This document shows, in pieces, positions 2-34,163 of a DNA stretch of 34,263 nt (position 1 is its first letter; every line of letters starts with the position of its first letter). This stretch comes from a virus: IMG/VR virus record IMGVR_UViG_3300012920_000127, positions 1 to 34,263 of that record. One strand, written 5' to 3'. Both the position numbers and the translations under genes were made by a program. The notes beneath the pieces were generated by a model. It made no database searches, was not told where the DNA came from, and worked only from the letters and a program-made list of their open reading frames with translations.

Positions 2-1135
2 ATGGAGCCGTTCGACGGGATTAAGTTCTTTGTTATGAACGTAGAAGCTTTTTCGACGCCTCGCGGAGCACAAACCGCGGGGCGATTTTTAGTTCAAAAC
101 CCTGACAACCTGATGGCGGTAGACGAAAGCACGACCATCAAAAACCGTAAGGCTTCGCGGACCAAGAACCTTATGGTCTTGCATAAGTACGCCAAGTATC
201 GGCGCATCCTCACGGGATCACCGATTACCAAAAGCCCTATGGATCTCTTCAGCCAGTGCAACTTTCTGGCAGAGAAGGCTCTTGGGTTTAACAGTTACTT
301 CGCATTCCAGAACCGCTACGCAATGGTACAGAAGCGCGTCATGGGGGCCAAAAGCTTTCAGGAGATAACGGGTTACCGAAGGCTCGATGAGCTATCAGAG
401 AAGCTTGACGTTTTTTCTACGCGCATACTGAAAGAAGAGTGTCTGGATTTACCACAAAAAATATATATGAAACGCATGGTGCCGCTGTCAGATGAGCAGC
501 AAAAGGTTTACGACCAGATGCGAAAACTGGCACTCGCACAACTGGACAACGGAGAGCTTGCCACAACTGCAAGCGTCCTGACACAGATCATGCGATTACA
601 GCAGATTTGCTGCGGGCATTTTACACCTGACGTAGGTGATATTCGCACATTAAAGAACAACCGTCTGAATGAACTCTTGGACATTACAGACGAGCTACAG
701 GGAAAAGCAATCATTTGGGCATCGTACACCCACGATATTCAACAGATAGCTTCAGCCCTGCGCCACCGCTTTGGCGTCGAGGCGGTGTCACTTTATTATG
801 GTGAGACACCACAAGATCAACGGCAAGACATTGTCGAGAGCTTTCAAAACAAGGATAGTCCCCTACGCTTCTTTGTGGGTCAACCCAAGACAGGAGGGTA
901 CGGCATTACCCTAACGGAGGCAACCACCGTCATATACTTCAGTAACAGTTATGACTTGGAGATTAGGCTACAGTCCGAGGACCGTGCGCATCGGATCGGG
1001 CAACATCACCCCGTAACTTACATTGATCTGGTATCTCCTAAGACAATAGACGAAAAGATTCTAAAAGCGTTGCGTAATAAAATTAATTTAGCTGAGAAGG
1101 TCTTGGGCGAGGACGCAAGGCAGTGGTTAGTTTGA
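2..1135 (+). CDS. SNF2-family DNA helicase, C-terminal part (5' truncated by window edge)
   Basis: This is the C-terminal part of a superfamily 2 SNF2/SWI2-type ATPase, probably used in phage DNA replication, repair or recombination. Visible motifs are a Walker B/motif II variant DEST at residues 41-44, motif III LTGSPI at 70-75, and motif VI QSEDRAHRIGQ at 324-334 with its paired arginines. The region before motif VI (GGYGITLTEATTVIYF) fits motif V. Walker A/motif I is absent, so the ATG at position 2 is almost certainly internal and the true start lies left of the window. It is the only plus-strand gene here. Its stop overlaps the stop of the minus-strand gene that follows by 9 bp, so the replication and structural modules converge. 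The family is clear; the exact role is inferred. Confidence 0.9.
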   Translation: MEPFDGIKFFVMNVEAFSTPRGAQTAGRFLVQNPDNLMAVDESTTIKNRKASRTKNLMVLHKYAKYRRILTGSPITKSPMDLFSQCNFLAEKALGFNSYFAFQNRYAMVQKRVMGAKSFQEITGYRRLDELSEKLDVFSTRILKEECLDLPQKIYMKRMVPLSDEQQKVYDQMRKLALAQLDNGELATTASVLTQIMRLQQICCGHFTPDVGDIRTLKNNRLNELLDITDELQGKAIIWASYTHDIQQIASALRHRFGVEAVSLYYGETPQDQRQDIVESFQNKDSPLRFFVGQPKTGGYGITLTEATTVIYFSNSYDLEIRLQSEDRAHRIGQHHPVTYIDLVSPKTIDEKILKALRNKINLAEKVLGEDARQWLV

Positions 1136-3976
1136 AAACAATTCTTTATGCTTGCCCTCTTTTATTTCTTTCATCAAGTCTCCGGCGGCTTCTTGAATCT
1201 GTAAAACTGCTTCAAATTTTGGAACTTTTTGTTTTAATTCACCTCGATCACGTTGTACTCGGTAATCCCTAAATTTTATTACGTCAGGGGTTTCTCTAAA
1301 ATCTTCATTCTTATTTTTTATAATTCTTAATTGAAGATCAACACCGGGATTTGCTTCTTTCCAATCGTCTAACGTCTCAAATTCTTTTCCCGGTCCATAA
1401 TGTACTCCTTTTACTAAAACTCTACCGTCTTCAGCTTGATGATAACGACCTGTAATTTTTTCAAAATCTTTTTCAAACATCTCCGCAAAATTTTCGTGCA
1501 AAAATTCAGAGTAAGGATAAGAACGTCCTTTCCCTCTTATTCTGTCTATCAGGTCTATGCGCCTTTGTTCCAACATTTTTGATAAAAAATCAAAAGATTC
1601 TTGACCATATTTTTCTTTATAAAGGAAAGGGTATTTTTCGAAATGTTTTAACAGTTTTTCTAATCCACGGTGTCTATATTCATGCGCTTGAATCTCTAGC
1701 GCACTACCTCCTACATTTATATCTATGCCAAGCCTATCTGTCCCTGGAGAATAGTGATCCCCTAAGCCAGGATTTTTCTGGCGAAATTCGGGGGTTATCA
1801 CAAAAGCAACATCTGGATCAAAACCAAGGCGAGAAACATTATCTGAAAGAAAATCTTGCATGTCTACCTCATACTCAACATCCGCCAAAGATTCTATGCC
1901 CTCAATGACAGGCCCTTTGTCCGGATTACCCTTAGAAGAGGCTAAATCTGCCTGTGCTCTATCTTCTGCGGAAGGAGGAAAATTGAAATTTTTAAGGTCT
2001 ACACCACCACCATTTGTAAACTGTTGATACGCGCCGATGCCCCGTGGGCCGCGGAACATGTCACGGGCTGTCTGGTTTAAACTTCCAACGCCCGCGATTA
2101 GGCGGTTATTGTTAGGGCCTTCAAAAATTTCTCGGCGCTTTTGTTGTTTAAAAATATCTATTTCTTTTGTTGTCTTTCCATCTGCTCGCATAAGTCTGTC
2201 GGCTTGTTGTATTTGTCTATGCAAATCGGAGGGTTGCATAGATTCAACAGCGCCGCCATAAGCCTTTTTATCTGTTCTTCGAAAAAAACCTTTTCTCATA
2301 GGGGTATATTTATCGGGGAATCTTCTATCTGAAATTTCATTTGTTTCTGGATTGAAAAAATATGACCCACCCCTCCGAAATAGTTCTTCAGGTGTTTCTC
2401 TAGGTTCAATCAACCTGTCAGAAAAATTCAAATCTGAGTAAGAATAATCCTCGTCAAGCTCTAATCCTGACGTATCTAATCTGCCGGGTCGCATGACATG
2501 AGGATATCTTGGATCATCTATTGTTTTTACAATAACAGGAACCTCGGGCAAATTTAATTCAATCGCTGCTTGTAAACGATGATGCCCTTCACCTATATTG
2601 ATTTCTCCATTTGATAAGGCTAATTCTATTTCAATTGGTTCCTTTATACCTTCATTAAATATATCTTCTTTAAGTGTCGGTTGCCCAGATTTTTCAAATT
2701 CTTCTAAAAATTGTGGGCTTTCATTTATATTACCCGATTTTAAATCTCCCCCAAATTTACCAACGTCATATCTTGGAAAATTAAATTGCGCCATATTGTC
2801 AGCAATTTCTTTGGTGCTTACGTATTCAACTTTAGGATTATCAAATGCCCGTCTTGGGGCAGCTATTCTATTAGTTTCTGCGTATTCAAGTATTTTCTTG
2901 TTTATCTCTTCGGTGCTTTTTTTGCCAATTCTTCCGTCAAGAATTATATTTTCAATATCTTCGTTAATAATTTTATTTGCGTTTTCTTTTAAATAATTAT
3001 CTACAAAATCATATTTGGGAACCATCTGCATGGATGAGTCTGGTTTAAGAAGACCAGAACTTATTTTTTCTTCTATGCTTTTTTGCGCCTGACTTTTTAT
3101 TGGTTGGTAAAAATCTTCTACAAAAACAGAGGCATTTGGATATTTACTTATGCCGTTTCTATCTTTGGCTACGTCCATCCCTCTACGTTTAATTTCTTTC
3201 GCAAGAACATCATAATTTGGGTGTTCAGGTATAATCATTTCATTTCCGAGGCGGATTTCGTATTGAATTCCTAAAATTTCTTCAATTGCATCATCTGACG
3301 CCCCTGTAAAAACTTTAGGATCCACCTCTTCAATCGCATCTCTTGCTTCATCAATCATTTCATATCGGGCAGTTGTAATGCTTCTATTAGCATCATCTCT
3401 AGTTTTAATTGCATCAATAACTTTTTGACCCGCAGAAGCATCTACATCAATAGATCCCATCTCATTTAATATTTCATTTTGGTCATCAATTTCTTTTCTT
3501 AGAACTCTTATATTAGCCATAGCCATATCAAGAGGATTTATTGCTGCCCTACTCCCCTTTTTAGCTACCTGCGTGGCAACGTCAGTAATTACATCAGGAG
3601 CTAATGCTGCTACGGGGACCGTGGCTGCTGCTCCGGCAAGAAAGTTCCGGCGGCTTGGGTCTTGTACAACATCTTTTACAACCTCTTCTGCTGCCTGCGA
3701 ACCACCAAAACCCATAAGCATTTCAGATATTGCTTGCGTCGCCTTTTGACCCCCAAGTCTTGCAAACAAAGGCGTCAAGCCATAAGCCGCAGTGCCGACC
3801 AAAGATTCAATGCCCCTTTCCACTCTCTCCCGCGTTGGGAGATTGTCAGGATTAGCTATTGCATCAACTGAACCGTCCCCTTGACGATAAAGATCAACAG
3901 GAACATTAAATAAAGTAAGCGCACGATTCACATTTTCAAAACCGGGTAGGTTTATATAACGATCATATTCGGACAT
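1127..3976 (-). CDS. large virion-type protein with ParB-like motif and HExxH metallopeptidase motif
   Basis: A 949-residue protein at the end of the structural operon. Three features stand out. Residues 108-113 read SRRNFL followed by an Ala/Gly-rich hydrophobic stretch, like a twin-arginine motif but internal. Residues 462-467 read GEGHHR inside a segment (about 440-480) that resembles a ParB/sulfiredoxin-like fold, whose signature is a G-H-H-R loop. Residues 765-769 read HEYRH, an HExxH zinc-peptidase motif, with a downstream HENFAEMF helix (827-834) that could supply the third ligand. Short glycine-pair motifs (YGGAVES, TNGGGVD) recur as in neighbouring proteins. Its ATG shares one base with the upstream stop (TAATG), so translation is probably coupled. 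A cargo or ejected enzyme is an inference; the whole protein matches no family I can name. Confidence 0.8.
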   Translation of the reverse strand: MSEYDRYINLPGFENVNRALTLFNVPVDLYRQGDGSVDAIANPDNLPTRERVERGIESLVGTAAYGLTPLFARLGGQKATQAISEMLMGFGGSQAAEEVVKDVVQDPSRRNFLAGAAATVPVAALAPDVITDVATQVAKKGSRAAINPLDMAMANIRVLRKEIDDQNEILNEMGSIDVDASAGQKVIDAIKTRDDANRSITTARYEMIDEARDAIEEVDPKVFTGASDDAIEEILGIQYEIRLGNEMIIPEHPNYDVLAKEIKRRGMDVAKDRNGISKYPNASVFVEDFYQPIKSQAQKSIEEKISSGLLKPDSSMQMVPKYDFVDNYLKENANKIINEDIENIILDGRIGKKSTEEINKKILEYAETNRIAAPRRAFDNPKVEYVSTKEIADNMAQFNFPRYDVGKFGGDLKSGNINESPQFLEEFEKSGQPTLKEDIFNEGIKEPIEIELALSNGEINIGEGHHRLQAAIELNLPEVPVIVKTIDDPRYPHVMRPGRLDTSGLELDEDYSYSDLNFSDRLIEPRETPEELFRRGGSYFFNPETNEISDRRFPDKYTPMRKGFFRRTDKKAYGGAVESMQPSDLHRQIQQADRLMRADGKTTKEIDIFKQQKRREIFEGPNNNRLIAGVGSLNQTARDMFRGPRGIGAYQQFTNGGGVDLKNFNFPPSAEDRAQADLASSKGNPDKGPVIEGIESLADVEYEVDMQDFLSDNVSRLGFDPDVAFVITPEFRQKNPGLGDHYSPGTDRLGIDINVGGSALEIQAHEYRHRGLEKLLKHFEKYPFLYKEKYGQESFDFLSKMLEQRRIDLIDRIRGKGRSYPYSEFLHENFAEMFEKDFEKITGRYHQAEDGRVLVKGVHYGPGKEFETLDDWKEANPGVDLQLRIIKNKNEDFRETPDVIKFRDYRVQRDRGELKQKVPKFEAVLQIQEAAGDLMKEIKEGKHKELFSN

Positions 3977-5754
3977 TAGCTCATGATACCTTGATACATA
4001 GCTGCGCTTGCGGGATCGGCGAACAAGGAAGCGATACCCAGTTCTTTATCAATATCCGCGCCTTGTTGAAACATAGGCATAAAGCGTGGATCGGTAGTAG
4101 GCACATAAGGTATTCCGGCGTAAGGGTCTTGAACTAAAACGTCTGAAGCCGTAACGGGTTGATACCCACCGTAAAAATTACTGCCTAAAAACGGTAGTGT
4201 TGTAATTGGAGAGACTTCACCTTCACCAGTGCCGCCGTCTTCAGTGCCACCACCTGTATCGCCATCTCCTGTATCGCCGCCACCTGTATCGCCGCCTCCA
4301 TTACCGCCGCCTCCATTGCCGCCGCCTCCATTGCCGCCGCCACCTGTACCGCCGCCAACTGTACCGCCGCCAACTGTACCCCCTAAATCTTCTTCAAGAA
4401 TAAGATCTCCGTCCATCGGAACTGTAGTTATAGTCGTATCACCGCCCGTTGGGTCATAGGATGGGTCGTCGCCTAGTTCAAGGTTACCAAATGTGTATTG
4501 ATCAAAAGATTGGCCTTCACCGGGTTGAATTTTATTAGATTGATCTATAATATAGTTGCCATCGGCGTCTGTCTTAGGTGCTCCGCTTTCATCAAATTCA
4601 AAAGTATAATAGCTACCTGTTTCAGCTAAATCCTTCGACATGTTGTAATCAGGGGAGTTTGGATCAGTCGAACCGGGAAAGTTTGTTGACGCATCAAAAG
4701 AATAAGGTTTATCTCCATCCGAGATTCCGGCTTGTGCACCCCCAATAGTCAAAATGCCTGCATCCCTCATGCCTTGAGTGAACTCTTCTGCACTATAGTC
4801 TCCAAATGGAGATACCCCAACGCCCATCTCATTTAATAAAGCGACCTCATCCACAGGTTGTCCTGTGTCTTTGTTAACTAAAACGCCTCCTACATATTCA
4901 GTATCGTTGAAAGGTGTAATTAAGTTTGCAACAGTTTGGCTTAAAGTATTTTCACGATCACCTTGAGCGTAGTAAGCCTCTAACGCTGTGTCGTACACCT
5001 CATCTGCATAAGTGCCATCAGCATATTGTGTATAAAATTTCCCGTCTTTCCTGCGAACCGTTCGTCCGCCTTCTTCTTTTGCTAACTCCGCCTCAACTTC
5101 ATTTTTATCTACAAAAAGACCCGTGTTTTTATCATATCCTAATGAAGGTTCATCCGTGTTTTTAAAAATATCAAGAATGCTACCCTCGTACTGAGGAGAG
5201 CCTCCTGCCTTTTCAACCTCTTCGGGAAAGTTCTCTGCAATGTTTTGTGAAACATGTCCAGCAAAGGTTGGTCCTTGGCTATTATCTTTCGGATCAATAC
5301 TGTAATCCCTACCCAACATATTCGTGTTCTTTAATTGCACCACTGCATACCAATTTCCGTCTTCATCTTGACGAATCTGGTTTACTTGCTTTTCGGCACT
5401 TGGAGATAAAGTGGGGCCTGAGTCATCGTCGTCAGAAGTGTCATTTGTTTCGCTGTCTGAAGTATCAGAAGTTGCACTGCTGTTGTATTCATCGCTGTTG
5501 TATGTTTCTGTGACTGCAGTACCAAAAGAAAAGATTTCTTTAAGCGTGTCGGATATCACATTATACGTCGGAATACCGCCGGGACCGGGCTGTCCTGAAC
5601 CACCAAGATCTTTCAAAAGCTGCCCTTCTTGTGGATTGATATACGCCAAGTAATGTGGTTGCCCCATGATAGTCGTATTACGAGGAATGAAAGACGAAAT
5701 TCCTCCACCGCCCGCTAATCTCATAATTTGTTGTGGCATCATAGAGCGGTTCAT
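3976..5754 (-). CDS. virion-associated protein with glycine-rich linker
   Basis: A 592-residue protein of unknown function lying between two very large virion-type proteins. The N-terminus (MNRSMMPQQIMRLAGGGGIS) carries the Gly-rich motif seen at the start of several neighbours. The middle is acidic and rich in Ser, Thr and Asp (about residues 90-130), then mixed, soluble-looking sequence. Residues about 458-513 are almost pure Gly with Asn, Thr or Asp every few residues, a flexible linker. The C-terminal 80 residues are ordered-looking (PVTASDVLVQDPYAGIPYVP). There is no signal peptide or obvious enzyme motif. The ATG overlaps the stop of the upstream gene (ATGA, 4 bp). A structural or ejected internal protein is inferred from position only. 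Confidence 0.8.
   Translation of the reverse strand: MNRSMMPQQIMRLAGGGGISSFIPRNTTIMGQPHYLAYINPQEGQLLKDLGGSGQPGPGGIPTYNVISDTLKEIFSFGTAVTETYNSDEYNSSATSDTSDSETNDTSDDDDSGPTLSPSAEKQVNQIRQDEDGNWYAVVQLKNTNMLGRDYSIDPKDNSQGPTFAGHVSQNIAENFPEEVEKAGGSPQYEGSILDIFKNTDEPSLGYDKNTGLFVDKNEVEAELAKEEGGRTVRRKDGKFYTQYADGTYADEVYDTALEAYYAQGDRENTLSQTVANLITPFNDTEYVGGVLVNKDTGQPVDEVALLNEMGVGVSPFGDYSAEEFTQGMRDAGILTIGGAQAGISDGDKPYSFDASTNFPGSTDPNSPDYNMSKDLAETGSYYTFEFDESGAPKTDADGNYIIDQSNKIQPGEGQSFDQYTFGNLELGDDPSYDPTGGDTTITTVPMDGDLILEEDLGGTVGGGTVGGGTGGGGNGGGGNGGGGNGGGDTGGGDTGDGDTGGGTEDGGTGEGEVSPITTLPFLGSNFYGGYQPVTASDVLVQDPYAGIPYVPTTDPRFMPMFQQGADIDKELGIASLFADPASAAMYQGIMS
4216..4384 (-). repeat. in-frame 15-bp repeats encoding a poly-glycine linker
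   Basis: Tandem, slightly varied 15-bp units (plus strand ccgccgcctccattg three times and ccgccgccaactgta twice, with related copies around them) encode GGGGN, GGGTV and GGGDT blocks. The length is a multiple of three and stays in frame with the 592-residue protein, so copy-number change would lengthen or shorten the linker without a frameshift. Confidence 0.85.
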
Positions 5755-8700
5755 CCGAATAGACTCCCTATTCCTTGTTGTTGTGGTTGTATCATGCCCG
5801 AAATAGGGTCATTGGGAAATAGTGCAGCATACCTAGACCGTGCCGCGGGCTGCGGAGCGTTGTTCTGGGTGGGGACAATTGGCGCAGGGGCCGTGACACG
5901 GTTAGGTTGCACCTCAGTACGATTGGTGGGAAGCACCGTCTGAGGCATGAGATCACTACGTTGATTACTTGGGGGCAGAGAAGGAACGACTTGAGATTCT
6001 TGTTGTGTTTCAGGTTCGTCTTCCAAACCTTGTGGTTCAAACTCTTCTTCTGGAAACAAAAGGCCACGTAAAATAACAGCTTGTCTTTTACCAATTTGAC
6101 CAACACCAAATTCAGCCATCTTATCTGCAAAACTTTTTTCCGCAGCGGCTAGTTGTTTTGCGTTTTGAACTTCAAGAAGAAGGTCTGAAAATTTTTGAGG
6201 GTTTTCAAGCATCGCTTGCATAGATTTAGCTATCGCCATTTCTGGTGCAATTAAGAAAAATTCTTGAGCACTTTCTGAACCAGATTGTGCCGCTACCATG
6301 CCGCCACCAATGCCGCCACCCTCAGTGCCTAAACCTACCTTTCGTAATATATTATTTAAAGTTTCTTGTGATTTTTGCCCTAATGTGGCACCAATCATCC
6401 TCACCATATTTTTTTTAGCTAAAGTTGGTTTTTTAAACATTATCTCTTCAAGATTATTATTTGTAAAAGCCTCTTCTACGTTTATCATCTCTCTCAAATA
6501 TTGACGGACTAGATTGGAGTCTTCTTTTGACATTATATTGTTTTTTGTCATCCAACTCATTAAGGTGTTTTGAGAGTCGGCTACGTTAGGCGGTTTAACA
6601 AACAAGGTGTCAAAAACAATACGAGGGGACATAGACGAACCTTCGTTTCCACCACGTGTAATTGCATAATTTAAAATTGCATTTTTCAAACCATCTTTAG
6701 CGTCTGCAACAGAAAAGGTTGAATTGGTTTCTGCATCAAAAATGTCAGTTCGAGGTTTTTCGGTAACTTTAACATCTCCACCCCGAAGGATTTTAACATT
6801 TTGTTGATTTTCTACTGTTCTTAAAAGAGAGTTTAAATCAGAAAAAGGATTGTCGGACGCGAGTAGTTTTGCAACAAATTTTTGAGGAGTTTCCCCTCCC
6901 ATATCCGCCGCTAATTGCAAAGCTCGATATGTATCATTTTGCGCAAAAAATTTCTTTGGATCAATGCTTGAAAGAGCATTTTGAGCGGTTTCAACATTTC
7001 TCAAATCCTTTGCAATATTTGGAAATGTTCTTAAAACTAATTTATTTGCAGGGTCTTCTTTAAATGCTTTAAGTTTTTTTGGATCAACAACATCGATTAA
7101 AACTTCAGGATTTGTTGGATCAGGTTTTTGAGTAGTAATTTTTGAAGTGACATATCGAAATGCATTTTCAAAAGCTTGATTAAAATTACCTGAAAAATCT
7201 TTTGCTGCACTTTCTGACAGACCCATTTCTTCTTTTACAAATTTATTTATCAACTCTACTTCGTTCATGCGCCTTACCACAGCGTCGCTACCACCTTGAA
7301 GCAAAAAGTTTAAAGCATTTTCTGGTCCCAATTTTAGACGCCCTAATGTGTCTGATGCGCCTAAATCTCCCAAAAAAGTTCTTTCACTTAAATCCCTACG
7401 GGCGAAAGTATAAGCACGAGCTAAATTATACGGTACGCTATCGGTGTCTTGACTAACTAAATCATTTAAGATTGCGTTTGATAAACGATCTAATCTTTCT
7501 GCGGTGGCGCTGTTACCTCTTTTACCTAAACCCGCTCTTAATTCTGCTGCCTTGTCTAATAAAGCTGTTCTCATTTCCATCAATCTTGCTGCTGTAACAG
7601 GATTTTCCATCTCTGAAGCATCAATGCTTCCTGATTTAAACATTTGTTCTGAAGATTCACGTAGTTTTATTGCTTCTAAATTAGCAACATTATCTAAGGC
7701 AGTAGCATACTTTTTAATTCCTTGATTATCATCAAATTCTTTTCGAGCAGCCCGTTCTCTTAAATTTTCAGCTTTTCTTCTAAAATATTCTACTCTTTCT
7801 TGCGGTGGAAGCTTGGCAGCATCGTCCATTTCCTCTTGTAAAAATTTTGCATTTTGACCCCCAGAAATTTTATCAATCGATTCTTGTAAAGACCTATAAG
7901 CTTTATTTAAAGCAGCAGATTGAGGTGCAACTGCACTTGCGGCGTCAGCCGTATCAGACACCACTCCTTCTGCATTACGTCCGAAATATTGAAAGATTAA
8001 ATCAAGATCGGCTCTAGTGCCCGCAGGTAAATTTGACCAAAAGGTTGCTGTTCCTGTTTCTGAAGCAAATTTTAAACCGCCCTCACTTGCGGGTTTGTCA
8101 AATAAAGAAACTATATTTGGCAGTTCTAAAACATCGCCATTTCGATTACGAAATTCTGTAATTTCAAAATCTCCAACACCCTTCCAGAATTTTTTCTCAA
8201 TATTATATGAATCATCTACGAATGTTTTAAGACGGTCATACAACCGTTCACTTACATCATATTTTGACAATTCTTTGGCATCGCCTTTGGTGATTTTTTC
8301 AAGGGCCTGATAAAGATTGTTTACTCTTCGAGTCAAATCTGCATTAAGCGCATTTTCGAAATAACCTTTTGAAATAATCGCCGATAATTTAATAAGAGTT
8401 GGATCTCCACTATTACTCATATCAATAATGTTTTGTTTAGAAGCTTGAATCCAAGCCTCTCTTCCTTTTTTGGAGGAAACGGAAAGCTCATTTAGTGTAC
8501 GGGCAACATTATTTTCTATAGCAACAAGAGCAGGACCTAGTTCAGAACCTCCTTCTACAGCAGTCAAAGCTACGTTTTGTCTATCAATTGCGCCTTCATC
8601 AATTAATTTAGCCTCCGCCAACAAAATATTATTAAGAAGTTCAATAGAATCATCGGTTAACTGTCCAGATTGTTCAAGCGCCTCGTAAATTCTCTTCATA

Positions 8701-9899
8701 GCTACTTCATCGCGAAGAGTTTTTACTCCATCTTTATCAAAGTATCTGAATATAGCATCTTTTACTTTGCGACCACCTTTGAGCGCACCCTTTACGGTAA
8801 GCTCAATCGCCGGACCGGGAACCGAGGCACCTAAAATTTCGTATAAAAAACGGGTGCCCTCTGATCCGGGCGCTGAAGCCTCTGCGCCTAAAGCTCCAGT
8901 TGCGGCCCCTGCGCCAGAGGTAAAATCAAAAGCTAAAGTAACATAGGGATGATTTCGTGCAAACTCGCCAATCCCAGGAATCGCTCGTTCAAATGCTCCT
9001 AACACACGAATTGGAACAGGCCCTTTGGACGGATCAAAAAACTGACCTTGCAAAATATTCCTACCTTGGCTTGCATTTTGGGCTAATTTAAATTGTTTAT
9101 CGGTTAAACCCGCTGCTTTAGAAGTCAATAAAAAAGAATTTCCATAGTCTTTCCAATTTCCTTTATTTACGTTTCTAAAATTATTAAGAAACGTAGATGC
9201 TCCTAACCATGTTTTATCGCTCGTCCATCTAAATGGGTTAGAAAGAGCAGACACGTTTAAGGCAAGTGCTCCTGTCTCTCCAAAATTTTCAGCGGGTCTT
9301 AAAGAAGGCACTATCGGTGTTTTGTCACCAAAGGCAGCGTCAGAAATTTCCTCCCCTATATAACCTCCGGCAGCAGCACCTACTAAAGTGCTTCCCCCAT
9401 AAATTAAAGCTCTTAAACCTATAGCCGCCGGACTTCTTGGAGGTATTTTACTAGCAAATTTTTGCCCTGCCTTCGCTCCAAATAGTAACCCTTCAGCTAT
9501 TCCCATACCAACAGGTTGTTTTCTAACAAACTCTTCTGAAAATCCTTCTAATCCCGGCAAGGTATTTGTTTTTGGATCGTATTTTCCATAGTCCTCGATG
9601 TTTGAGAATAAGCTAAGTATCGCCTCTGGATTGGAAAAATACGCTTTTCTGTCATCCCTGGACATATCTGCAAATTCATCGCTGTAATCTAGAAAAGATG
9701 CAGTGCCGTCTTCTAAATCTTTATATGTAAACTTAAAATCATCAGGTTGTGTAGCCGAGGCTCTTTCAACTAAGGCGTTTGCTAAGTTTTTTAAACCGTA
9801 AGTCTGTAAAGCTTCGTTAAAACTTTCCTCGGTAAATTGATATCGAATGTCCCCTTTAGTGGCATCCATATTAAGACTTATGCCAAACTCTTCAGCCAT
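5751..9899 (-). CDS. very large internal virion / DNA-ejection candidate protein
   Basis: A 1382-residue protein, the largest in the window. Residues about 155-190 form a hydrophobic glycine-zipper stretch (ALIYGGSTLVGAAAGGYIG) and a second small Ala/Gly-rich stretch lies near residue 320 (FTSGAGAATGALGAEA). The rest is mostly helical, charged sequence. The last 120 residues are rich in Pro, Gln and Asn and end in SRYAALFPNDPISGMIQ, a tail motif I associate with marine phage internal proteins. The size, helical character and glycine zippers resemble podovirus ejection proteins, which insert into the host envelope to pass DNA, but no named family is recognised. A giant tape-measure role is less likely because no tail-tube genes are visible. 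The start follows the upstream stop directly (TAAATG). Confidence 0.8.
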   Translation of the reverse strand: MAEEFGISLNMDATKGDIRYQFTEESFNEALQTYGLKNLANALVERASATQPDDFKFTYKDLEDGTASFLDYSDEFADMSRDDRKAYFSNPEAILSLFSNIEDYGKYDPKTNTLPGLEGFSEEFVRKQPVGMGIAEGLLFGAKAGQKFASKIPPRSPAAIGLRALIYGGSTLVGAAAGGYIGEEISDAAFGDKTPIVPSLRPAENFGETGALALNVSALSNPFRWTSDKTWLGASTFLNNFRNVNKGNWKDYGNSFLLTSKAAGLTDKQFKLAQNASQGRNILQGQFFDPSKGPVPIRVLGAFERAIPGIGEFARNHPYVTLAFDFTSGAGAATGALGAEASAPGSEGTRFLYEILGASVPGPAIELTVKGALKGGRKVKDAIFRYFDKDGVKTLRDEVAMKRIYEALEQSGQLTDDSIELLNNILLAEAKLIDEGAIDRQNVALTAVEGGSELGPALVAIENNVARTLNELSVSSKKGREAWIQASKQNIIDMSNSGDPTLIKLSAIISKGYFENALNADLTRRVNNLYQALEKITKGDAKELSKYDVSERLYDRLKTFVDDSYNIEKKFWKGVGDFEITEFRNRNGDVLELPNIVSLFDKPASEGGLKFASETGTATFWSNLPAGTRADLDLIFQYFGRNAEGVVSDTADAASAVAPQSAALNKAYRSLQESIDKISGGQNAKFLQEEMDDAAKLPPQERVEYFRRKAENLRERAARKEFDDNQGIKKYATALDNVANLEAIKLRESSEQMFKSGSIDASEMENPVTAARLMEMRTALLDKAAELRAGLGKRGNSATAERLDRLSNAILNDLVSQDTDSVPYNLARAYTFARRDLSERTFLGDLGASDTLGRLKLGPENALNFLLQGGSDAVVRRMNEVELINKFVKEEMGLSESAAKDFSGNFNQAFENAFRYVTSKITTQKPDPTNPEVLIDVVDPKKLKAFKEDPANKLVLRTFPNIAKDLRNVETAQNALSSIDPKKFFAQNDTYRALQLAADMGGETPQKFVAKLLASDNPFSDLNSLLRTVENQQNVKILRGGDVKVTEKPRTDIFDAETNSTFSVADAKDGLKNAILNYAITRGGNEGSSMSPRIVFDTLFVKPPNVADSQNTLMSWMTKNNIMSKEDSNLVRQYLREMINVEEAFTNNNLEEIMFKKPTLAKKNMVRMIGATLGQKSQETLNNILRKVGLGTEGGGIGGGMVAAQSGSESAQEFFLIAPEMAIAKSMQAMLENPQKFSDLLLEVQNAKQLAAAEKSFADKMAEFGVGQIGKRQAVILRGLLFPEEEFEPQGLEDEPETQQESQVVPSLPPSNQRSDLMPQTVLPTNRTEVQPNRVTAPAPIVPTQNNAPQPAARSRYAALFPNDPISGMIQPQQQGIGSLFG

Positions 9900-12800: not shown

Positions 12801-13118
12801 TACAGAGATACCACCAGAATTCTGAAATGTATTTTTTCCGAATTCTTGTTCCGCCTGGCCTTGAACTTTTTGCACAAAGCTTGGAACTTTTTGAGTAATT
12901 GCATTAGAAAGATCATTGCCAAATCTTTGAAAAACTTGGTTTGAGCCTGACGGCATTTGACCTACAAGAGAACGTTGTGAATTAATTAGGTCCTGAATTC
13001 CAGAACCCCGTAGTTCACCTAGTTGAGCAACCCTACCGCCTTCGTTAAATTTTTTTGCCATTTCAGGATCAATTTTGCGCTGCACATACTCAGGAAGTGC
13101 TCTAAAACCTTTATTCAT
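9900..13118 (-). CDS. long coiled-coil virion protein, probable internal/ejection protein
   Basis: A 1072-residue protein. The N-terminus holds repeated GG motifs (KFNEGGRVAQL, AMGGEAM, FNQGGEVRHYAPGGPV) and Met/Gln/Pro-rich low-complexity sequence up to about residue 315. From roughly residue 330 to 740 it is a near-continuous charged, heptad-like coiled coil rich in Ala, Gln, Glu, Lys and Leu. A Ser/Thr-rich linker follows, then a C-terminal domain ending in ESGTMGALEFLNQNQ. No transmembrane segment or enzyme motif is seen. Location among large structural genes and the rod-like middle suggest an internal core or ejection protein. A tape-measure-like function cannot be excluded from composition alone. 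It is coupled to the upstream gene by TAATG. Confidence 0.8.
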   Translation of the reverse strand: MNKGFRALPEYVQRKIDPEMAKKFNEGGRVAQLGELRGSGIQDLINSQRSLVGQMPSGSNQVFQRFGNDLSNAITQKVPSFVQKVQGQAEQEFGKNTFQNSGGISVIPQNQQTQFMNTPTGYNLSDVLDRKMFQNHPLQRFNKNQPTQMAMGGEAMMGMPAQPPTAPADQVQFVEDISRQQGAQLADQMMADIDAADDPKSMIDAIRGNEKPLEARYAELAGYVGEADAQQTPESVLAMVQPTIMLTEEGAIDSGIGELMQGLAGQIEMETPSGEATPMGQGVGELMAMGAGNTPPVNFNQGGEVRHYAPGGPVSLMPYYEEARDIRRGILGSPEERAAELEEQKKMTKAQMLFDIAQTALAAGAPTAQPMSFAERLMSAAQGTELFNKIGDRAAGLQAAKDLQRRERKQLDLSALESAERQVEAQRAREATMALEGLKQAGALTQLAQQFEYQQKRDETQFGYSTRLASQKSDLQAGIEQIKLDAAAARNSENIALQERLAAKQADLQRELNETNNALKLEMQSIDIDAAKLARQDDQAFQLELQEKKESLQILLQATELTNDKELIEARTKAQKELTKLQTIEDLKKFETQFGITSAFELEKMKAGSEFDKELLDYKANIEMLAQNRAQAFTASQNALNRLAEKTNITTRAELTAELQKELQAMSQEFQGDENAKQRAATLAQNMIENAFTEDQIILKTAELKLDQTYKLGSLALEEAAQNAVQLGSKSDTAIINFISDEKRLDAYANGQLGDNKTQFEQALLNYLSSGSEVWDREKGAYVKGPPPKLSDRILQAIKTGDPAFYKKVTSGETVGTGTSNTGSTTTKIDTSAQSPDTAKIAAAVSNPTVVDLSQLSGEIIKNGKVNLDSPIWDQTEYTRYKPEIDYPVAIGFSRVYPGAKKIAQEAGEEIGVGQGADTESQNLAQAQTDLTAFANDLLLLNTQIADDRVLKFVQLDIAAETEKLKPGGLFFRTDADARAVLETLSNTLALGIEKKIPLVPEFGGDAAKYSEAQVQQARASIMAMLPMLNEVLAFQKGFNKNLGSVYNRPITESGTMGALEFLNQNQIPKVK

Positions 13119-14242
13119 TATAAAATCCCCGCTTCTTTAGCGCCGCCATACGCACTCAATCCTGCTATTCCAAGGCTTGCCGCTTGCATGAACGGCGAAG
13201 CGTTGCTACCTGTGTTCATTGTTTGTGTAGATTGTGAGGTTGGAATCCCCGCATATACATCAGACAAAAACCCTAACTGTTGGAAAGGTTGTTGATATCT
13301 TTGTTGATTGGTCATTCTCGCTGCGTCGAGAGCCGCTTGTTCACTAGCCTGACTCATACCACCTGTTTGCATGAGTGAACTTATATCACGACCTCGCAAG
13401 CTTTGCTCTAATTCTCCAAGGCCCGCACTTTTTATACCAAGACCCGCTAAACCTGTAGCAAGCTGACCCGTCGTTGCAGCCCCGCTCTGTTGTCTTTTCT
13501 TGGCAGCCTCAAACGCTTGTTGTGCACGAGTGGCAGCATCTTGATATCCTGCTTGACGCATACCTGCGACGGTGGTTCCAAGTTCTCTTTCGAAGCGCTC
13601 TCTGGCAGGTGTCATTTCCCTTGCCTTGGCTCTTTCAAAACCAGACCCTCCGAAAGCGCCTCTAGCCACGGCTTCCGCCGCAAGTTCTTGATTTCTTTGA
13701 GTTTCTCTACGTTCAAAGTTTTTTGTTAGATCTTCTATGGTTCGATCAATTACTTCTTGTTGGTAAGGAGACATAAAATCTGCAATACCCGTCGGATCGA
13801 ACTCAGCATCTGAACCGATTAAACTGGAAATGCCATCTTGCATTGCTAAAGATCCAGTTCTTACGTCACCCAAACCCTCTGTTAAATAAGGCGCATACGA
13901 ACCAACGCCTGCTTCGGCTAAGTTTATCGCGTCCATTTGAGGACGAGTTAATCCTGCTACCTGAAAATCAGGCAATCCAAACATTGCGTCACGAGAAATA
14001 CCACCTATTTCTTCCCCAGTATATGTTCGTCCGGGTACATAATCCTCGTCACCCTCTTCGCCTACTTGCTCTACAGACAACATCTTGCCAATAGTGGCGT
14101 CATCGTAACCTTGTGCTCGCAGGTTTTGCACCTGTTGACCAAACATTTGGTTGCGGATCAAACCCTGTACGTCGCCCAAAAGACCTAAACGATATGCCTC
14201 AATGTTGGGGTCTTGACGTGTTATGGTTGTTGTTACGCTCAT
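13118..14242 (-). CDS. phage structural / DNA-transfer-like protein (SPYQQEVID...GAFGGSG family)
   Basis: A 374-residue protein. The central block around residues 155-205 (ADFMSPYQQEVIDRTIEDL, then a charged helix, then ARGAFGGSGFERAKA) is a pattern I know from a widespread family of tailed-phage structural proteins encoded near tail and injection genes. The flanking sequence is Gln/Ala-rich helix with repeated GLAGLGIKSAGLG. The C-terminal 25 residues are small and hydrophobic (AASLGIAGLSAYGGAKEA), a possible membrane-active end. The ATG overlaps the upstream stop by 4 bp and its own stop overlaps the next ATG by one base, so expression of the three neighbouring genes is probably coupled. 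DNA-ejection or internal virion function is inferred from family and position. Confidence 0.8.
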   Translation of the reverse strand: MSVTTTITRQDPNIEAYRLGLLGDVQGLIRNQMFGQQVQNLRAQGYDDATIGKMLSVEQVGEEGDEDYVPGRTYTGEEIGGISRDAMFGLPDFQVAGLTRPQMDAINLAEAGVGSYAPYLTEGLGDVRTGSLAMQDGISSLIGSDAEFDPTGIADFMSPYQQEVIDRTIEDLTKNFERRETQRNQELAAEAVARGAFGGSGFERAKAREMTPARERFERELGTTVAGMRQAGYQDAATRAQQAFEAAKKRQQSGAATTGQLATGLAGLGIKSAGLGELEQSLRGRDISSLMQTGGMSQASEQAALDAARMTNQQRYQQPFQQLGFLSDVYAGIPTSQSTQTMNTGSNASPFMQAASLGIAGLSAYGGAKEAGIL

Positions 14243-19704: not shown

Positions 19705-20796
19705 CTATGCTGCTATTTCTGTCCATGCTGTGCCCGGACTTGGTTGTATCTCACTATAACTTGTTTCTGCGTCTGGAGCAATCGTAGCATATCCTGTGCC
19801 CGGACTTGGTTGTATCTCACTATAACTTGTTTCTACATTTGGAGCAATTAGAGCATATTCCGTGTTTGGATCAGGAATAATTCTTCCCCAAACAACAACT
19901 GGAGATATCGTGCCTGTTGCAGAAAGCCCTGTCACAGAAACAACAGCGTCACCTGTAGTGGTAACGTAATTTAAAGCACTGGTTGCAGCAAGCCCTGTTA
20001 CAGAAATATTTATACCGATTCTGACTGTGGCTGAACCCACAGAACCTGTGGCAGCTAAACCTATAGGAGAGATAACTGCATCGGCACTTATAGTTACATC
20101 ATCTGTTTCACCTGTTGCGCTTAATCCAGTTGTAGAAACAACTGCATCCCCAGTTACAGTTCCAGAATTTATCTCACCCGTAGCCTCCAAACCTGTCGGA
20201 GAAACAATTGCAGTGCCTGTTATTGATGGGCTTCCTAAACCACCCGAAGCCTCCAAACCTGTCGGAGTGACAACTATTCTAGGAGTAACGACAACAGAGT
20301 CTACCTCACCCGAAGCAGAAAGACCCGTAAGTGAGATAAGCGCATCGGCGGTGACAGTAACCGTCTCAACTTCACCTGTTCCTTCTAAACCAGTAAGAAT
20401 TACAAACGCTGAACCACCAGAAGAAAGACTTCCTACAAAGCCTTGGGCTGCTAGTGAATCTGTTGATACGACGGCCTGTCCACTTACAGTGACATCATTT
20501 AAGGCACTAGTGGATTCTAAGCCCGTGACAGAAAGAGAAGAGTTACCACTTACACCAACAGAACCAACAGAAGCTGTCGCTGATAAACCTGTGGCGGAAG
20601 TATCAGATGCTCCAATTACACCTACTGACCCTAAGCCACTTGTAGACGCTAAACCTGTAACGGATATTGAAATATTAACGCTTGCACTTACTGACCCTAC
20701 AGCACCTGTTGCGCCTAGACCTGTTACGGATACTGATACGTCCGTACTGCCAGTACTCGCAAGTGGTGCGGAGGCTACAGGTGTAAAGCCTAGCAT
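19705..20796 (-). CDS. repetitive fibre protein with twelve 22-residue repeats
   Basis: A 363-residue protein built from tandem 22-residue units. From residue 24 to 287 there are twelve full units with the consensus x-TGLxATGxVGSVTVxGxAxVS, and a thirteenth partial unit to about residue 304. Each unit would give two or three beta-strands, so the protein likely forms an extended solenoid or trimeric beta-shaft. The C-terminal 60 residues contain a second repeat, SYSEIQPSPGT, present twice with a 22-residue period. Ser, Thr, Gly, Val and Ala dominate and there is no Cys. It lies among tail fibre genes and is probably a fibre shaft; receptor contact is an inference. The 67-residue gene follows 3 bp upstream in transcription order. 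Confidence 0.85.
   Translation of the reverse strand: MLGFTPVASAPLASTGSTDVSVSVTGLGATGAVGSVSASVNISISVTGLASTSGLGSVGVIGASDTSATGLSATASVGSVGVSGNSSLSVTGLESTSALNDVTVSGQAVVSTDSLAAQGFVGSLSSGGSAFVILTGLEGTGEVETVTVTADALISLTGLSASGEVDSVVVTPRIVVTPTGLEASGGLGSPSITGTAIVSPTGLEATGEINSGTVTGDAVVSTTGLSATGETDDVTISADAVISPIGLAATGSVGSATVRIGINISVTGLAATSALNYVTTTGDAVVSVTGLSATGTISPVVVWGRIIPDPNTEYALIAPNVETSYSEIQPSPGTGYATIAPDAETSYSEIQPSPGTAWTEIAA
19728..19834 (-). repeat. 41-bp perfect direct repeat, 66-bp spacing
   Basis: The 41-bp plus-strand sequence beginning ctgtgcccggacttggttgt is identical at 19728-19768 and 19794-19834. The offset of 66 bp is exactly one 22-residue unit of the same gene, and it encodes SYSEIQPSPGT twice. 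The perfect identity points to a recent in-frame duplication. Confidence 0.9.
19885..20727 (-). repeat. 66-bp tandem repeats (22-residue units)
   Basis: Twelve complete and one partial imperfect 66-bp units encode TGLxATG-type repeats. Protein-level identity between units is well above the DNA-level identity, which suggests old duplications held by selection. The period keeps a long open frame on the plus strand as well, which is a shadow. Confidence 0.85.
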
Positions 20797-26588: not shown

Positions 26589-27263
26589 TTAATCCTCATT
26601 ATACAGGTTATCAAAAACCCTGTTTACATCTAGTGTATAGTCTAAATCACTTTTTGAATAGTGTATATGTTGTGACGGTTTAAAGTCTGGCGCACCCTCT
26701 CCCGCGGCAAACCATGCGGGATGCGTAACTCGTACTCTATTATTTGGCAAAGCAACTATATTGCCCGTCCAATCTCCGGCATCTAAAAGCTGCAATACAT
26801 GACTTTGTTTATGCTGTGCAGGATCATCAGCTATCTCACTTTCAGCATAGTCCACAGTAAAAAGATACTTCGCCGGAAGCATATTTCCGTCAATCTTTGC
26901 AAGCCAAGGACACGGTGTTGCGCGATCCATTACAAAAACAGAATGATGATAAGATGCACAATCCCACGGTTGAGCATCGTAAGTTTCCATCGGTTCAGGC
27001 CACTCTTCAAGTGGTATATCTGCAACAAGCGCCGTCAACGGCATTCTCGCCCACATCGCGCCTCCATGTACAGTATCTTCTTCATCACCTTCCGCTTCGC
27101 TTCCAGTAAATATAACTTGAAAACTTAAACACCTGTTTGGCATAGTGGTGACCCCAATTACCATCGCGTGTAAAAATTCGCCGTGGTACTTCTCGTGGTT
27201 GTGAGTGTATTCACGGCGAACCCATGCCTTGAAATAAGGCACATTTGAATGTAAATAAGCCAT
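26589..27263 (-). CDS. conserved virion-region protein of unknown function
   Basis: A 224-residue soluble protein. It starts MAYLHSNVPYFKAWVRREYT and is rich in aromatic residues, His and acidic residues (EYTHNHEKYHGEFLHAMVIG, AQPWDCASYHHSVFVMDRAT, FKPSQHIHYSKSDLDYTLDV). I see it as a protein that recurs in marine phages next to the head-tail adaptors, but no function is known to me. The His clusters are not in an HExxH or other standard metal motif. The ATG forms TAATG with the preceding basic protein, so the two are probably coupled. Confidence 0.75.
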   Translation of the reverse strand: MAYLHSNVPYFKAWVRREYTHNHEKYHGEFLHAMVIGVTTMPNRCLSFQVIFTGSEAEGDEEDTVHGGAMWARMPLTALVADIPLEEWPEPMETYDAQPWDCASYHHSVFVMDRATPCPWLAKIDGNMLPAKYLFTVDYAESEIADDPAQHKQSHVLQLLDAGDWTGNIVALPNNRVRVTHPAWFAAGEGAPDFKPSQHIHYSKSDLDYTLDVNRVFDNLYNED

Positions 27264-27553
27264 TATTTTTTCTTCTTCGCGGCTCCGCCTTTAGCTTTTT
27301 TTATTGGGCTTAAAGTCATACCTTTTTGTTTTGCTGCACTTCGAAGTTGTGCCATAGTCATTGCACTGCCGCCCATCATCATTTTCATAGGTTTTTTACC
27401 ACCCATTGCACCGCCTTTAGACATACGCTTTGGTTTTTTACCACCCGCGGCTCCGCCTTTAGCCATTCGACGCATTTTACCGCCCGCAGCGCCACCTTTG
27501 GACATACGCTTTACTTTGCCACCTGATCGGTAACCTTTTTTCTTCATTGCCAT
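27263..27553 (-). CDS. repetitive lysine/glycine-rich basic protein
   Basis: A 96-residue protein that is nearly all Lys, Arg, Gly, Ala and Met. A unit of about 14 residues (KRMSKGGAAGGK, RRMAKGGAAGGKK, KRMSKGGAMGGKK) repeats three times and is followed by a Met-rich KPMKMMMGGSAMT and a helix with AQLRSAAKQKGM. The tail is KGGAAKKKK. It resembles histone H1-like or protamine-like tails in composition, and its GG motifs are like those in the large internal proteins. DNA binding is likely from charge, and its location in the structural operon hints at a virion DNA-condensing protein. That is inference. Confidence 0.75.
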   Translation of the reverse strand: MAMKKKGYRSGGKVKRMSKGGAAGGKMRRMAKGGAAGGKKPKRMSKGGAMGGKKPMKMMMGGSAMTMAQLRSAAKQKGMTLSPIKKAKGGAAKKKK

Positions 27554-28272: not shown

Positions 28273-28427
28273 AAAAATTTCCCCGCTATCGCTGTAGCAA
28301 CAATAAGAATAGCTATTCCCCAAAGACGCATATCTAATTTATCTAGCTGTTTATCAATTTTTTTATATCGCTCATTACATTCAGCTTCATGTCTTTCTAA
28401 ACGATTTAAAAGATCATCAATATCCAT
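28269..28427 (-). CDS. 52-residue coiled-coil single-pass membrane protein
   Basis: A gene too short for common ORF cutoffs. It reads MDIDDLLNRLERHEAECNER, then YKKIDKQLDKLDMRLWG, then a hydrophobic segment IAILIVATAIAG and KFL. This is an N-terminal coiled coil with a C-terminal membrane helix, the layout of XhlA-type haemolysin/holin accessory proteins. Its ATG shares one base with the upstream stop (TGATG), and its TGA overlaps the next ATG (ATGA). An ATG two codons earlier (28433) is an alternative start. It is separate from the lysis cassette at the right end, so a lysis role is unsure. Confidence 0.7.
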   Translation of the reverse strand: MDIDDLLNRLERHEAECNERYKKIDKQLDKLDMRLWGIAILIVATAIAGKFL

Positions 28428-28747
28428 CAACATTTCCATCTTTTTCTAGCTTGTCTTAATCGTGAATTGGGATTTTTTGCCGCTTTTGGGAATTTTTTCA
28501 TTTGTCCCGCTGAACGAGCACAAAATGATTTACGACGTTTATCCGCTTTGCTACCTTTTTTTACTTTGCCCGTTACGGCTGTTTTTAATTTAGATCCAGG
28601 GTTTTTTCTCCTATACGCTTTTACCCCCGCCTCGGTCATTCCCGCCCCTTTTTCAGTAGGGCGGAAATTCTTTTTATTACGCTTTGGCATCTTATCGCTT
28701 TTGCGTTTTTTTTCCTTTGACGACTTTGTTTTTACCTTAGACGCCAT
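28427..28747 (-). CDS. basic protein, DUF6321-like
   Basis: A 106-residue, extremely basic protein. After a Lys-rich N-terminus (KTKSSKEKKRKSDKMPKRNK) comes GAGMTEAGVKAYRRKNPGSK, then KADKRRKSFCARSAGQMKKF and an end in RKRWKC. I recognise the MTEAGVKAYRR and RRKSFCAR signatures from a small family in T4-like cyanophages and other marine phages (remembered as DUF6321). The function is unknown; nucleic-acid binding is likely from charge. It sits 9 bp after the 92-residue gene and is coupled to the 52-residue gene by TGATG. Confidence 0.8.
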   Translation of the reverse strand: MASKVKTKSSKEKKRKSDKMPKRNKKNFRPTEKGAGMTEAGVKAYRRKNPGSKLKTAVTGKVKKGSKADKRRKSFCARSAGQMKKFPKAAKNPNSRLRQARKRWKC

Positions 28748-32593: not shown

Positions 32594-33037
32594 CTAGTAA
32601 TGCAAAACGTCTTCTGGGTCACTAATTTTTGCCAAAATTTCATCGTCATTCAAAATTCTCACTTCTCCACCGTCAATGTTGAAACGAGAGCCAGAATATC
32701 TAGCAAACATCACCCAATCTTTTTCTTGACACCACGGTCCTGTTGGGAATTTTTCGCTATCTTTGTATGCTAAAGAGCCAACTTTTAAGACGTAGCCAAC
32801 CTGAGTAGACACTTGTTGTTGATCTACGGCTGATTCAGGCATGTAAACACCGCCCTCAGTCTTACCTTTGCCCCGGTACGGAAGTACAAGTATTCTCCAA
32901 CCTGTTGGATTTGGCATTCTATCTAGGAGGGAACCACCAATGTTCTCTGGATTGAGAACTTTTGGAGCTTCGTAAGCCTCTGAAAGATTAGCTACCGCCG
33001 CTTTCACAGAGGATAAATTAAATTTTTTGTCAGTCAT
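32594..33037 (-). CDS. GroES-like co-chaperonin
   Basis: A 147-residue protein. Residues about 46-137 match the GroES fold: GWRILVLPYRGKGKTEGGVY with the mobile-loop-like GKTEGGVYMPESA at 58-70, then GYVLKVGSLAYKD, WVMFARYSGSRFNIDGGEVR and ILNDDEILAKI. The first 45 residues are an extra helix not found in bacterial GroES. Co-chaperonins carried by phages partner with host GroEL to fold capsid subunits. The gene lies just before the scaffold-like and capsid genes. It overlaps the 65-residue gene by 8 bp. Confidence 0.85.
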   Translation of the reverse strand: MTDKKFNLSSVKAAVANLSEAYEAPKVLNPENIGGSLLDRMPNPTGWRILVLPYRGKGKTEGGVYMPESAVDQQQVSTQVGYVLKVGSLAYKDSEKFPTGPWCQEKDWVMFARYSGSRFNIDGGEVRILNDDEILAKISDPEDVLHY

Positions 33038-33289: not shown

Positions 33290-33901
33290 TTATATATTAA
33301 ACCACCTATATATTTTTTGGGTTTCCTCTTTTCGGTGCTTTAAACCATTGTATCCGCCGTTCACCCTTTTGGTGATCGTCTTGATCGTTTCGTCATTCAC
33401 ACCTTCGTCACAAATTTCCCACAATTTATTTCTATGAAAGAACCAAATTGCGCTTTCCATCGGGTATTTTGAAGCCACAAGGTCAGGATCCTTCATTATT
33501 TCAGGTAAATCCATGTCCGATGCAAACTGAGAGTAATTATTTTTGCCCGTGCATTGCAGAAATCCGCGGCCTCGCCACAAATATCCTTGTCCGTCATTAC
33601 CCATTCTGCCTCCGTAGACTTTATCTGCCAAGGCTTGAGGGTTTCTAGCGCATTTTTCCGCCTCACCCTCGGTTGGAAAGTATTTTCCAAACACTTTAAG
33701 AATGGATTCTTTAGAATAATTTAAGTTTTCCTCTACATAACGAAAAGTTCCGCTCTCATGCACTAATTGACCCAAAAAATGAGCACCGCGCTCTGGATTT
33801 AACGCATAGTGGTTACAAATAGCTTTCGCTGTGTTGGGTCCAAACGCACCATCCGGGTTTGAACCTATCTTTTCTTGTAATGTTTTAAGTGCTTCACTCA
33901 T
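33290..33901 (-). CDS. endolysin, GH19 chitinase-like muramidase
   Basis: A 203-residue peptidoglycan hydrolase. The start at 33901 (MSEALKTLQEKIGS) is chosen over a 34-residue longer upstream start because the extra residues have no conserved character and lie over the end of the previous gene. The N-terminal 32 residues (IGSNPDGAFGPNTAKAICNH) look like a small binding helix. The catalytic domain has HES at 48-50 (Glu49 as general acid), a second Glu in RYVEENLNYS (57 or 58), and GRGFLQCTGKNNY (111-123), all typical of GH19 lysozymes of phages. It overlaps the 89-residue membrane protein by 8 bp, so the two are coupled. No signal peptide, so export must depend on a holin. Confidence 0.9.
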   Translation of the reverse strand: MSEALKTLQEKIGSNPDGAFGPNTAKAICNHYALNPERGAHFLGQLVHESGTFRYVEENLNYSKESILKVFGKYFPTEGEAEKCARNPQALADKVYGGRMGNDGQGYLWRGRGFLQCTGKNNYSQFASDMDLPEIMKDPDLVASKYPMESAIWFFHRNKLWEICDEGVNDETIKTITKRVNGGYNGLKHRKEETQKIYRWFNI

Positions 33902-34163
33902 TAACAAACTCCTTCGATCCGCAGACACGCTCATATACCATGTCTGACGTGTAACTTTCAGCCCATTTATTTTCCGTGAAAGTACAAAAGGCCCACAAAT
34001 CATTCACATCTGCATTCAAAAGATCAATAATGTCCTGTTGCGCAGAAACTTGACCCTGTAAATGCTCAATGTCATGTACAATGTTGCTGATATACCACAC
34101 TAAACCAACTAATTGCACCGCCATAGCAAAAACTAAGGCTACTGGTATCTTTAAATCACTCAT
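33894..34163 (-). CDS. single-pass membrane protein, lysis-cassette candidate
   Basis: An 89-residue protein with one hydrophobic segment at residues 6-26 (IPVALVFAMAVQLVGLVWYI), then a coiled-coil region (IEHLQGQVSAQQDIIDLLNA) and a polar C-terminus. Orientation with the N-terminus inside is likely. The layout suits an i-spanin-like or holin-like lysis protein. It directly precedes the endolysin and its ATG overlaps the stop of the truncated gene upstream (ATGA). No spanin lipobox or partner gene is visible. Confidence 0.75.
   Translation of the reverse strand: MSDLKIPVALVFAMAVQLVGLVWYISNIVHDIEHLQGQVSAQQDIIDLLNADVNDLWAFCTFTENKWAESYTSDMVYERVCGSKEFVNE

Follow-up and report, generated by a model that had tools for sequence, protein, structure and literature searches.

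Why a phage should place a protein that combines a ParB-like motif with an HExxH peptidase motif at the end of its late operon is the question raised by the virus record IMGVR_UViG_3300012920_000127, the whole of which (34,263 bases, hereafter the window) was analysed. The protein, of 949 residues, is encoded by an open reading frame (ORF) with an ATG start. The ORF (1127–3976) and the motifs GEGHHR (residues 462–467), HEYRH (765–769) and HENFAEMF (827–834) lie where an initial annotation had placed them, and the strand, which that annotation did not name, is the minus strand. We consider, with moderate confidence in the explanation as a whole, that the ORF encodes a modular virion protein of the 'polyvalent' kind, expressed late as part of the ejection module and probably packaged and delivered at infection by a marine podovirus akin to the HTVC023P-type pelagiphages. 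Its parts are the following, where Srx denotes sulfiredoxin, Tat denotes twin-arginine, and pLDDT and pTM are the confidence scores of the predicted structures.

1127–3976, minus strand: the whole protein of 949 residues, composed of a Tat-like N-terminal module, a ParB/Srx module, a linker and a zincin module.
3134–3739, minus strand: N-terminal module, residues 80–281, conserved in 14 aligned relatives with different enzymes.
3593–3661, minus strand: internal twin-arginine (Tat-like) block DPSRRNFLAGAAATVPVAALAPD, residues 106–128, the most conserved block of that module.
2249–3004, minus strand: ParB-containing module, residues 325–576 (predicted structure with pLDDT 77.6 and pTM 0.76).
2459–2842, minus strand: ParB/Srx-fold core, residues 379–506.
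2576–2593, minus strand: GEGHHR, residues 462–467, which aligns with GERR of ParB box II and is similar to the GxHR motif of Srx.
2003–2101, minus strand: linker motif LIAGVGSLNQTARDMFRGPRGIGAYQQFTNGGG, residues 626–658, which recurs at module joints in relatives.
1130–1909, minus strand: zincin-type metallopeptidase module, residues 690–949.
1670–1684, minus strand: HEYRH, residues 765–769, predicted to supply zinc ligands and the general base; the predicted helix that contains it has pLDDT of about 96.
1475–1498, minus strand: HENFAEMF, residues 827–834, predicted third-ligand helix, with E828 invariant and E832 nearly so.

The ParB/Srx-like context that the initial annotation had suggested for GEGHHR was borne out by structure prediction, by structural comparison and by profile searching. 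As shown in the AlphaFold2 model, the module contains a strand–GxHR–helix arrangement in which GHHR starts the helix formed by residues 141–149 of the model. The top Foldseek matches of this model were sulfiredoxin, ParB, Noc, and SbnI or SerK (best E 0.024, prob 0.97), nearly all rows returned by VIA belonged to the ParB/Srx superfamily (best Z 4.9, root-mean-square deviation 3.9, 86 residues aligned), and a PDB profile search with the module recovered ParB/Noc/Spo0J only, with the GHHR region falling over the GERR region; these fold matches are weak one by one and consistent taken together. GHHR is invariant in the relatives that carry the module (13/13), and E463 of GEG is not kept (E, S or Q). 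Sequence and model agree in indicating a ParB/Srx fold around GEGHHR, in which a G-x-x-R nucleotide-site motif opens a helix. The fold and the position of this motif (G-x-H-R/GERR) are those of the ParB/Noc CTPases and sulfiredoxin; unlike in the ParB/Noc CTPases, only the ParB N-terminal domain is matched, embedded in a virion-module protein. The single sequence matches the PHROG ParB-like family (E 8.8e-8) and TIGR00180 (E 2.6e-4, 20.8 bits against a cutoff of 58.45 bits), and the ParB match is confined to the N-terminal domain, which places the protein outside the ParB partition proteins proper.

For the C-terminal module, relatives were collected by a pattern scan and tblastn. Across 26–27 divergent relatives, reaching down to 22% identity with the query, H765, E766, H769, G771 and E828 are invariant and E832 is nearly so; the second motif reads E-x-(hydrophobic)-x-E-x-(F/L)-(D/E) and lies about 38–66 residues past HExxH, and an N-terminal signature, ...GxxEFRADM...RLGFDP, is shared. 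In the predicted structure, HExxH and ENFAE lie in two separate helices, the latter with pLDDT of about 77. The HExxH peptidase motif and downstream HENFAEMF helix that the initial annotation had pointed out are accordingly both conserved and both predicted to be helical, and together they form a gluzincin-type signature, in which HExxH in a helix is followed by a conserved glutamate as third ligand. No credible family was found in Pfam or PHROGs for any of the 27 members, and the zincin profile matched only antibody chains and one regulator among PDB sequences, which are chance matches. As judged from sequence, the module represents a putative zinc-protease family, missing from curated libraries, whose members occur on phage contigs from the sea and from other environments. 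Among bacterial and archaeal genomes, one scan with a single narrow pattern confirmed no zincin relative, which does not imply absence. Matches to Roseobacter and HMO-2011 phage isolates fall mainly on the C-terminal part (about 280–440) of the protein of one relative and lie outside its zincin segment (60–224), and therefore demonstrate no zincin in those phages. The module stands alone in ORF46 (225 residues) of phage KZY1-k141_1027853 (PQ867840, Zobellviridae), which adjoins a lysozyme gene and, unlike the 949-residue protein, has neither a ParB nor an N-terminal module. Two zincin modules occur in tandem in one protein of another contig (L063:6938-12235), and in L037:3-3086 a second, different HExxH (HELQH) lies upstream of the zincin module together with a weak match to LPD23 (large polyvalent protein domain).

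Both motifs are short, the single-sequence family scores are weak and so is the zincin fold match, and it might be supposed that the two motifs are fortuitous and lie in loops or helices that form no active site. The composition of the protein leads one to expect only 0.016 HExxH and 0.0009 GHHR, both motifs are invariant in wide alignments, and the ParB/Srx assignment was reached by three independent methods. Conservation in relatives excludes chance, and we regard a fortuitous pair as scarcely credible. The initial annotation would have been refuted by motifs falling in loops or helices with no active-site geometry; for ParB this is contradicted, and the zincin motifs are conserved and lie in predicted helices, with a weak fold match. 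The pairing of the two motifs in one protein also stands, each being part of a conserved domain, and its description as unusual is only partly right, since ParB with a C-terminal metallopeptidase is a described polyvalent theme (phage P1 DdrB; PMC5512222).

The placement at the end of the structural operon was likewise upheld: the gene is the final gene of the late minus-strand operon and adjoins the ejection-protein genes, or in relatives the portal gene. It overlaps the preceding 592-residue ORF by 1 bp and is convergent with an SNF2-type helicase. The genes that matter here are as follows.

2–1135, plus strand: SNF2-type helicase, incomplete because the contig ends within it; relatives keep it as the right-hand neighbour.
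3976–5754, minus strand: 592-residue late gene, with the 1 bp overlap; no family match.
5751–9899, minus strand: 1382-residue gene, a homologue of the 'DNA transfer protein' of phage DSL-LC04 (E 1e-20).
13118–14242, minus strand: DNA ejection protein (PHROG 4287, E 1.4e-8), belonging to the late operon that also includes the 949-residue gene.
33290–34003: endolysin-type gene, separate from the 949-residue gene.

The order of the late minus-strand genes is endolysin-like, GroES, a 288-residue gene (PHROG 28737), capsid and tail, followed by the DNA ejection protein and the 1072-, 1382-, 592- and 949-residue genes; judged by its position, the 288-residue gene may be scaffold-like. The capsid protein is 70–73% identical to those of DSL-LC04, 023Pt_psg01 and the Pelagibacter phages HTVC027P and HTVC023P, and a 638-residue protein matches the 'stabilization'-type protein of the same group.

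The architectures of relatives were read with module profiles from ORFs complete on the relevant side; L002, L004, L005, L008, L022, L031, L032, L036 and L037 are cut by contig ends, and modules on the cut side were not scored as absent. N denotes the N-terminal module and SLT a lysozyme-type lytic transglycosylase module, which was matched in relatives with Pfam E down to 1e-19.

L038 (1257 residues): N, ParB, zincin and SLT.
L016: ParB, zincin and SLT behind another N-terminus.
L014 and L015: N and ParB.
L003, L023, L026 and L028: N and SLT.
L027, L085 and L086: N, ParB and SLT.
L001: N and zincin.
L025: N alone.

These genes occupy two seats: one before the helicase and after the ejection genes (the window, L003, L015, L025, L027 and L038) and one directly before the portal gene, a name that is our own reading of the sequence (L001, L008, L014, L016, L036 and L037). 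The portals of L001 (N and zincin) and L014 (N and ParB) are 99.8% identical over the 570 residues compared, and helicases 95–99% identical to the partial copy of the window adjoin N with ParB, N with SLT, N with ParB and SLT, and N alone. Differing modules beside near-identical portals or helicases mean that the modules have been exchanged on a short evolutionary time scale. ParB, zincin and SLT are swapped behind a shared N-terminal module, singly or combined, and one genomic site displays the exchange by phages of probably injected enzymes, the neighbours being 95–99.8% identical and the enzyme modules wholly different. T7 gp16 is a lytic-transglycosylase (SLT) ejection protein; the 949-residue protein resembles such proteins in being a late protein of the ejection module, and several relatives carry SLT at this position, whereas the protein of the window lacks SLT and carries a peptidase module.

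Modules that come and go between close relatives are not essential, and this, together with the variable E463 of GEG, would suit a mainly structural ejection protein whose ParB and zincin modules fold without catalysing any reaction and act as spacers or bind DNA. We hold this to be quite unlikely, since within each module few positions are as well conserved as those of the motif, even in zincin relatives at 22–35% identity. All modules tested are under purifying selection: the ratio of nonsynonymous to synonymous substitution rates (dN/dS) is 0.13–0.27 for most pairs, and 0.38 for one very close pair.

The module joints share a linker, GxGSL...AR.M.RGPRGIG.Y.QF..GG, which was found in 16 distinct proteins; in the 1257-residue ORF of L038 the joints carry GVGSLSETARRMNEGG-type repeats. 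The linker may mark where modules recombine, where the protein is cleaved, or both. Motifs of a shorter, GI[AG]SL type were seen near the ends of neighbouring late proteins (the 1382-, 592- and 462-residue ORFs), and LRPRPRP-like Arg-Pro repeats occur at the C-termini of L003, L026, L028 and L038 and at the start of L010. After the ParB part, L027:1573-4740 and L022:3-2399 have in common a possibly beta-rich module (VNLRPLDLPVDGRMSYT...).

The N-terminal module carries the Tat-like block, and 13 of the 15 invariant columns of the module lie within D...DPSRRxF..G.AA....A..AP. The consensus of the block, DPSRRxF[LIM]xGAAA, fits a [ST]RRxFLK-like motif followed by a hydrophobic stretch, as in Tat signals. 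TIGR01409 and Pfam TAT_signal match 13 of the 14 members (best 8e-6 and 9e-8, respectively), and with TIGR01409, whose cutoff is 16.7 bits, the N-terminal piece of the window protein scores 17.6 bits and the full-length protein 15.2 bits. The pattern [ST]RRxF[LIM] occurs in 26 of the 551 ORFs of at least 200 residues over all loci, and all 26, which are not independent because several loci overlap, belong to the family of the 949-residue protein. The block is carried by the window and by L001, L003, L014, L015, L023, L025–L028, L038, L085 and L086. Tat signals as a rule occupy the N-terminus; in most relatives whose 5' end is complete, the twin arginines lie at about 108–110 residues from the first Met, which is not an N-terminal position. 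An internal start just ahead of the block was rejected, as the candidate Met codons are not conserved (there are none in L001, L015 and L027). The N-terminal piece gave no match in isolated phages, and nothing relevant was found in the literature on Tat signals in virion proteins. The block might just as well be the part of an ejection protein that inserts into the membrane.

The invariance of this signal in the family, the TIGR01409 matches in 13/14 members with the window piece above the cutoff, and the SLT modules of relatives would also suit a late protein that is left unpackaged and exported by the Tat system of the host, with the peptidase (SLT in relatives) attacking the envelope and thereby aiding lysis or blocking superinfection. 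This is unlikely in our view: the signal lies some 108 residues into the protein, a distance that relatives keep, the window has its separate endolysin-type gene, a periplasmic ParB module would make little sense, and the gene adjoins ejection or portal genes, not lysis genes. For proteins that the virion delivers, the internal Tat-like signal offers a clue, open to testing, as to how they may come to lie at the membrane of the host. The initial annotation noted none of the following: module swapping, the presence of SLT in relatives, the repeated linker and the internal Tat-like signal.

Delivery with the virion is suggested by comparison with known systems. Polyvalent proteins, known from phages and conjugative elements, are long products of late genes found in the company of virion genes; they unite several unrelated enzyme domains, often a zincin-like metallopeptidase with ParB-like or lysozyme domains, and it has been proposed that the peptidase processes the protein (PMC5512222; Iyer et al. 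2017). A processed form of P1 DdrB is packaged in the head, as cited in PMC5512222, and the N4 virion RNA polymerase (vRNAP) is packaged uncut (PMC5512222). The 949-residue protein shares with polyvalent proteins at least two unrelated effector domains in one chain (ParB and zincin, plus SLT in L038 and L016) and the late/virion gene context in phages, and, as in P1 DdrB, its ParB-type domain precedes an HExxH peptidase at the C-terminus. By this analogy it is best filed with the polyvalent proteins (ParB plus metallopeptidase, as in P1 DdrB) and would work like one, and its packaging in the virion is likely. It differs from them in that its ParB is ParB_N-like and not DdrB-ParB, its zincin is without a match in Pfam and PHROGs, and PMC5512222, in the text of which 'twin-arginine' and 'signal peptide' do not occur, describes neither a conserved module with an internal Tat-like signal nor a linker that recurs. 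Membership of the DdrB-ParB subfamily (PF18763) was rejected, as the 949-residue protein gave no match at E up to 10, whereas P1 DdrB, the positive control, matches at 2e-39. The ParB module has no profile similarity to P1 DdrB, the sole alignment of the zincin profile with P1 DdrB lies on the HELGHH site and is not significant, and P1 DdrB, unlike the 949-residue protein, gave no Tat-signal match in a Pfam scan. Neither of the two enzyme domains could be assigned to the polyvalent subfamilies described in that work.

In the proposed mechanism, the protein would be made alongside the ejection proteins, packaged with them and carried into the cell at infection. The shared N-terminal module (about residues 1–320), with its twin-arginine and hydrophobic segment, may see to its placement at the inner membrane or across it; the module of ParB/Srx fold would bind a nucleotide via GxHR and act early on the DNA (nicking, protection or DNA hand-over); and the C-terminal zincin, with H765, H769 and E828 or E832 as predicted ligands and E766 as the base, might cut the linkers and free the parts, or cleave a host protein. 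Related phages would put other enzymes, notably lytic transglycosylase, into the same frame.

Several observations weigh against this explanation. In DSL-LC04 the homologue of the 1382-residue gene ends the series of late genes and is separated from the helicase side by a small nuclease gene, and no homologue of the 949-residue gene is found at the equivalent place; the modules are also absent at the equivalent place in HTVC023P, HTVC027P and CRP-901, which are cultured or complete relatives. The gene is accessory, because DSL-LC04 and the other named relatives checked are without its modules. The match to Pfam ParB_N (PF02195; E 9e-4, 19.7 bits) is under the curated cutoff of 26.3 bits, and a position about 108 residues into the protein is unusual for a Tat signal. 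Foldseek gave no significant PDB match for the zincin model, and although zincin peptidases account for most of the best VIA rows, all are weak, with Z at most 3.6 (LTA4 hydrolase, Z 3.6, root-mean-square deviation 5.4, 135 residues aligned; 3c37, Z 3.2; selecase, Z 2.9).

Taken further, the packaged-protein explanation leads to a conserved chassis of marine podoviruses, in which a Tat-like N-terminal module carries exchangeable sets of ParB, the new zincin-protease family and lytic transglycosylases via the linker; the assembled protein would enter the virion, undergo self-cleavage at its linkers and rely on the twin-arginine signal for positioning the delivered enzymes at the inner membrane of the host or across it. 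This stronger form is speculative and on present evidence rather improbable; if true, the locus would be a combinatorial, fast-evolving site of effector delivery, and a virion protein would be found to employ a Tat-type signal.

Among the other late genes, the homologue of the 592-residue gene in L005:5273-7864 has, as seen by eye, an apparent Hint/intein-like stretch (CPTPDMRITLANG...EVGDVVYTSHE...VLSHN), which the copy in the window lacks. The late block of the window further encodes a GroES-like co-chaperonin (32594–33037, minus strand) and small, strongly basic Lys/Arg-rich proteins that are possibly DNA-condensing (27263–27553 and 28427–28747, minus strand), and a 363-residue protein consists of degenerate V-S-V-T-G-L-x-A-T-G repeats (19705–20796, minus strand).

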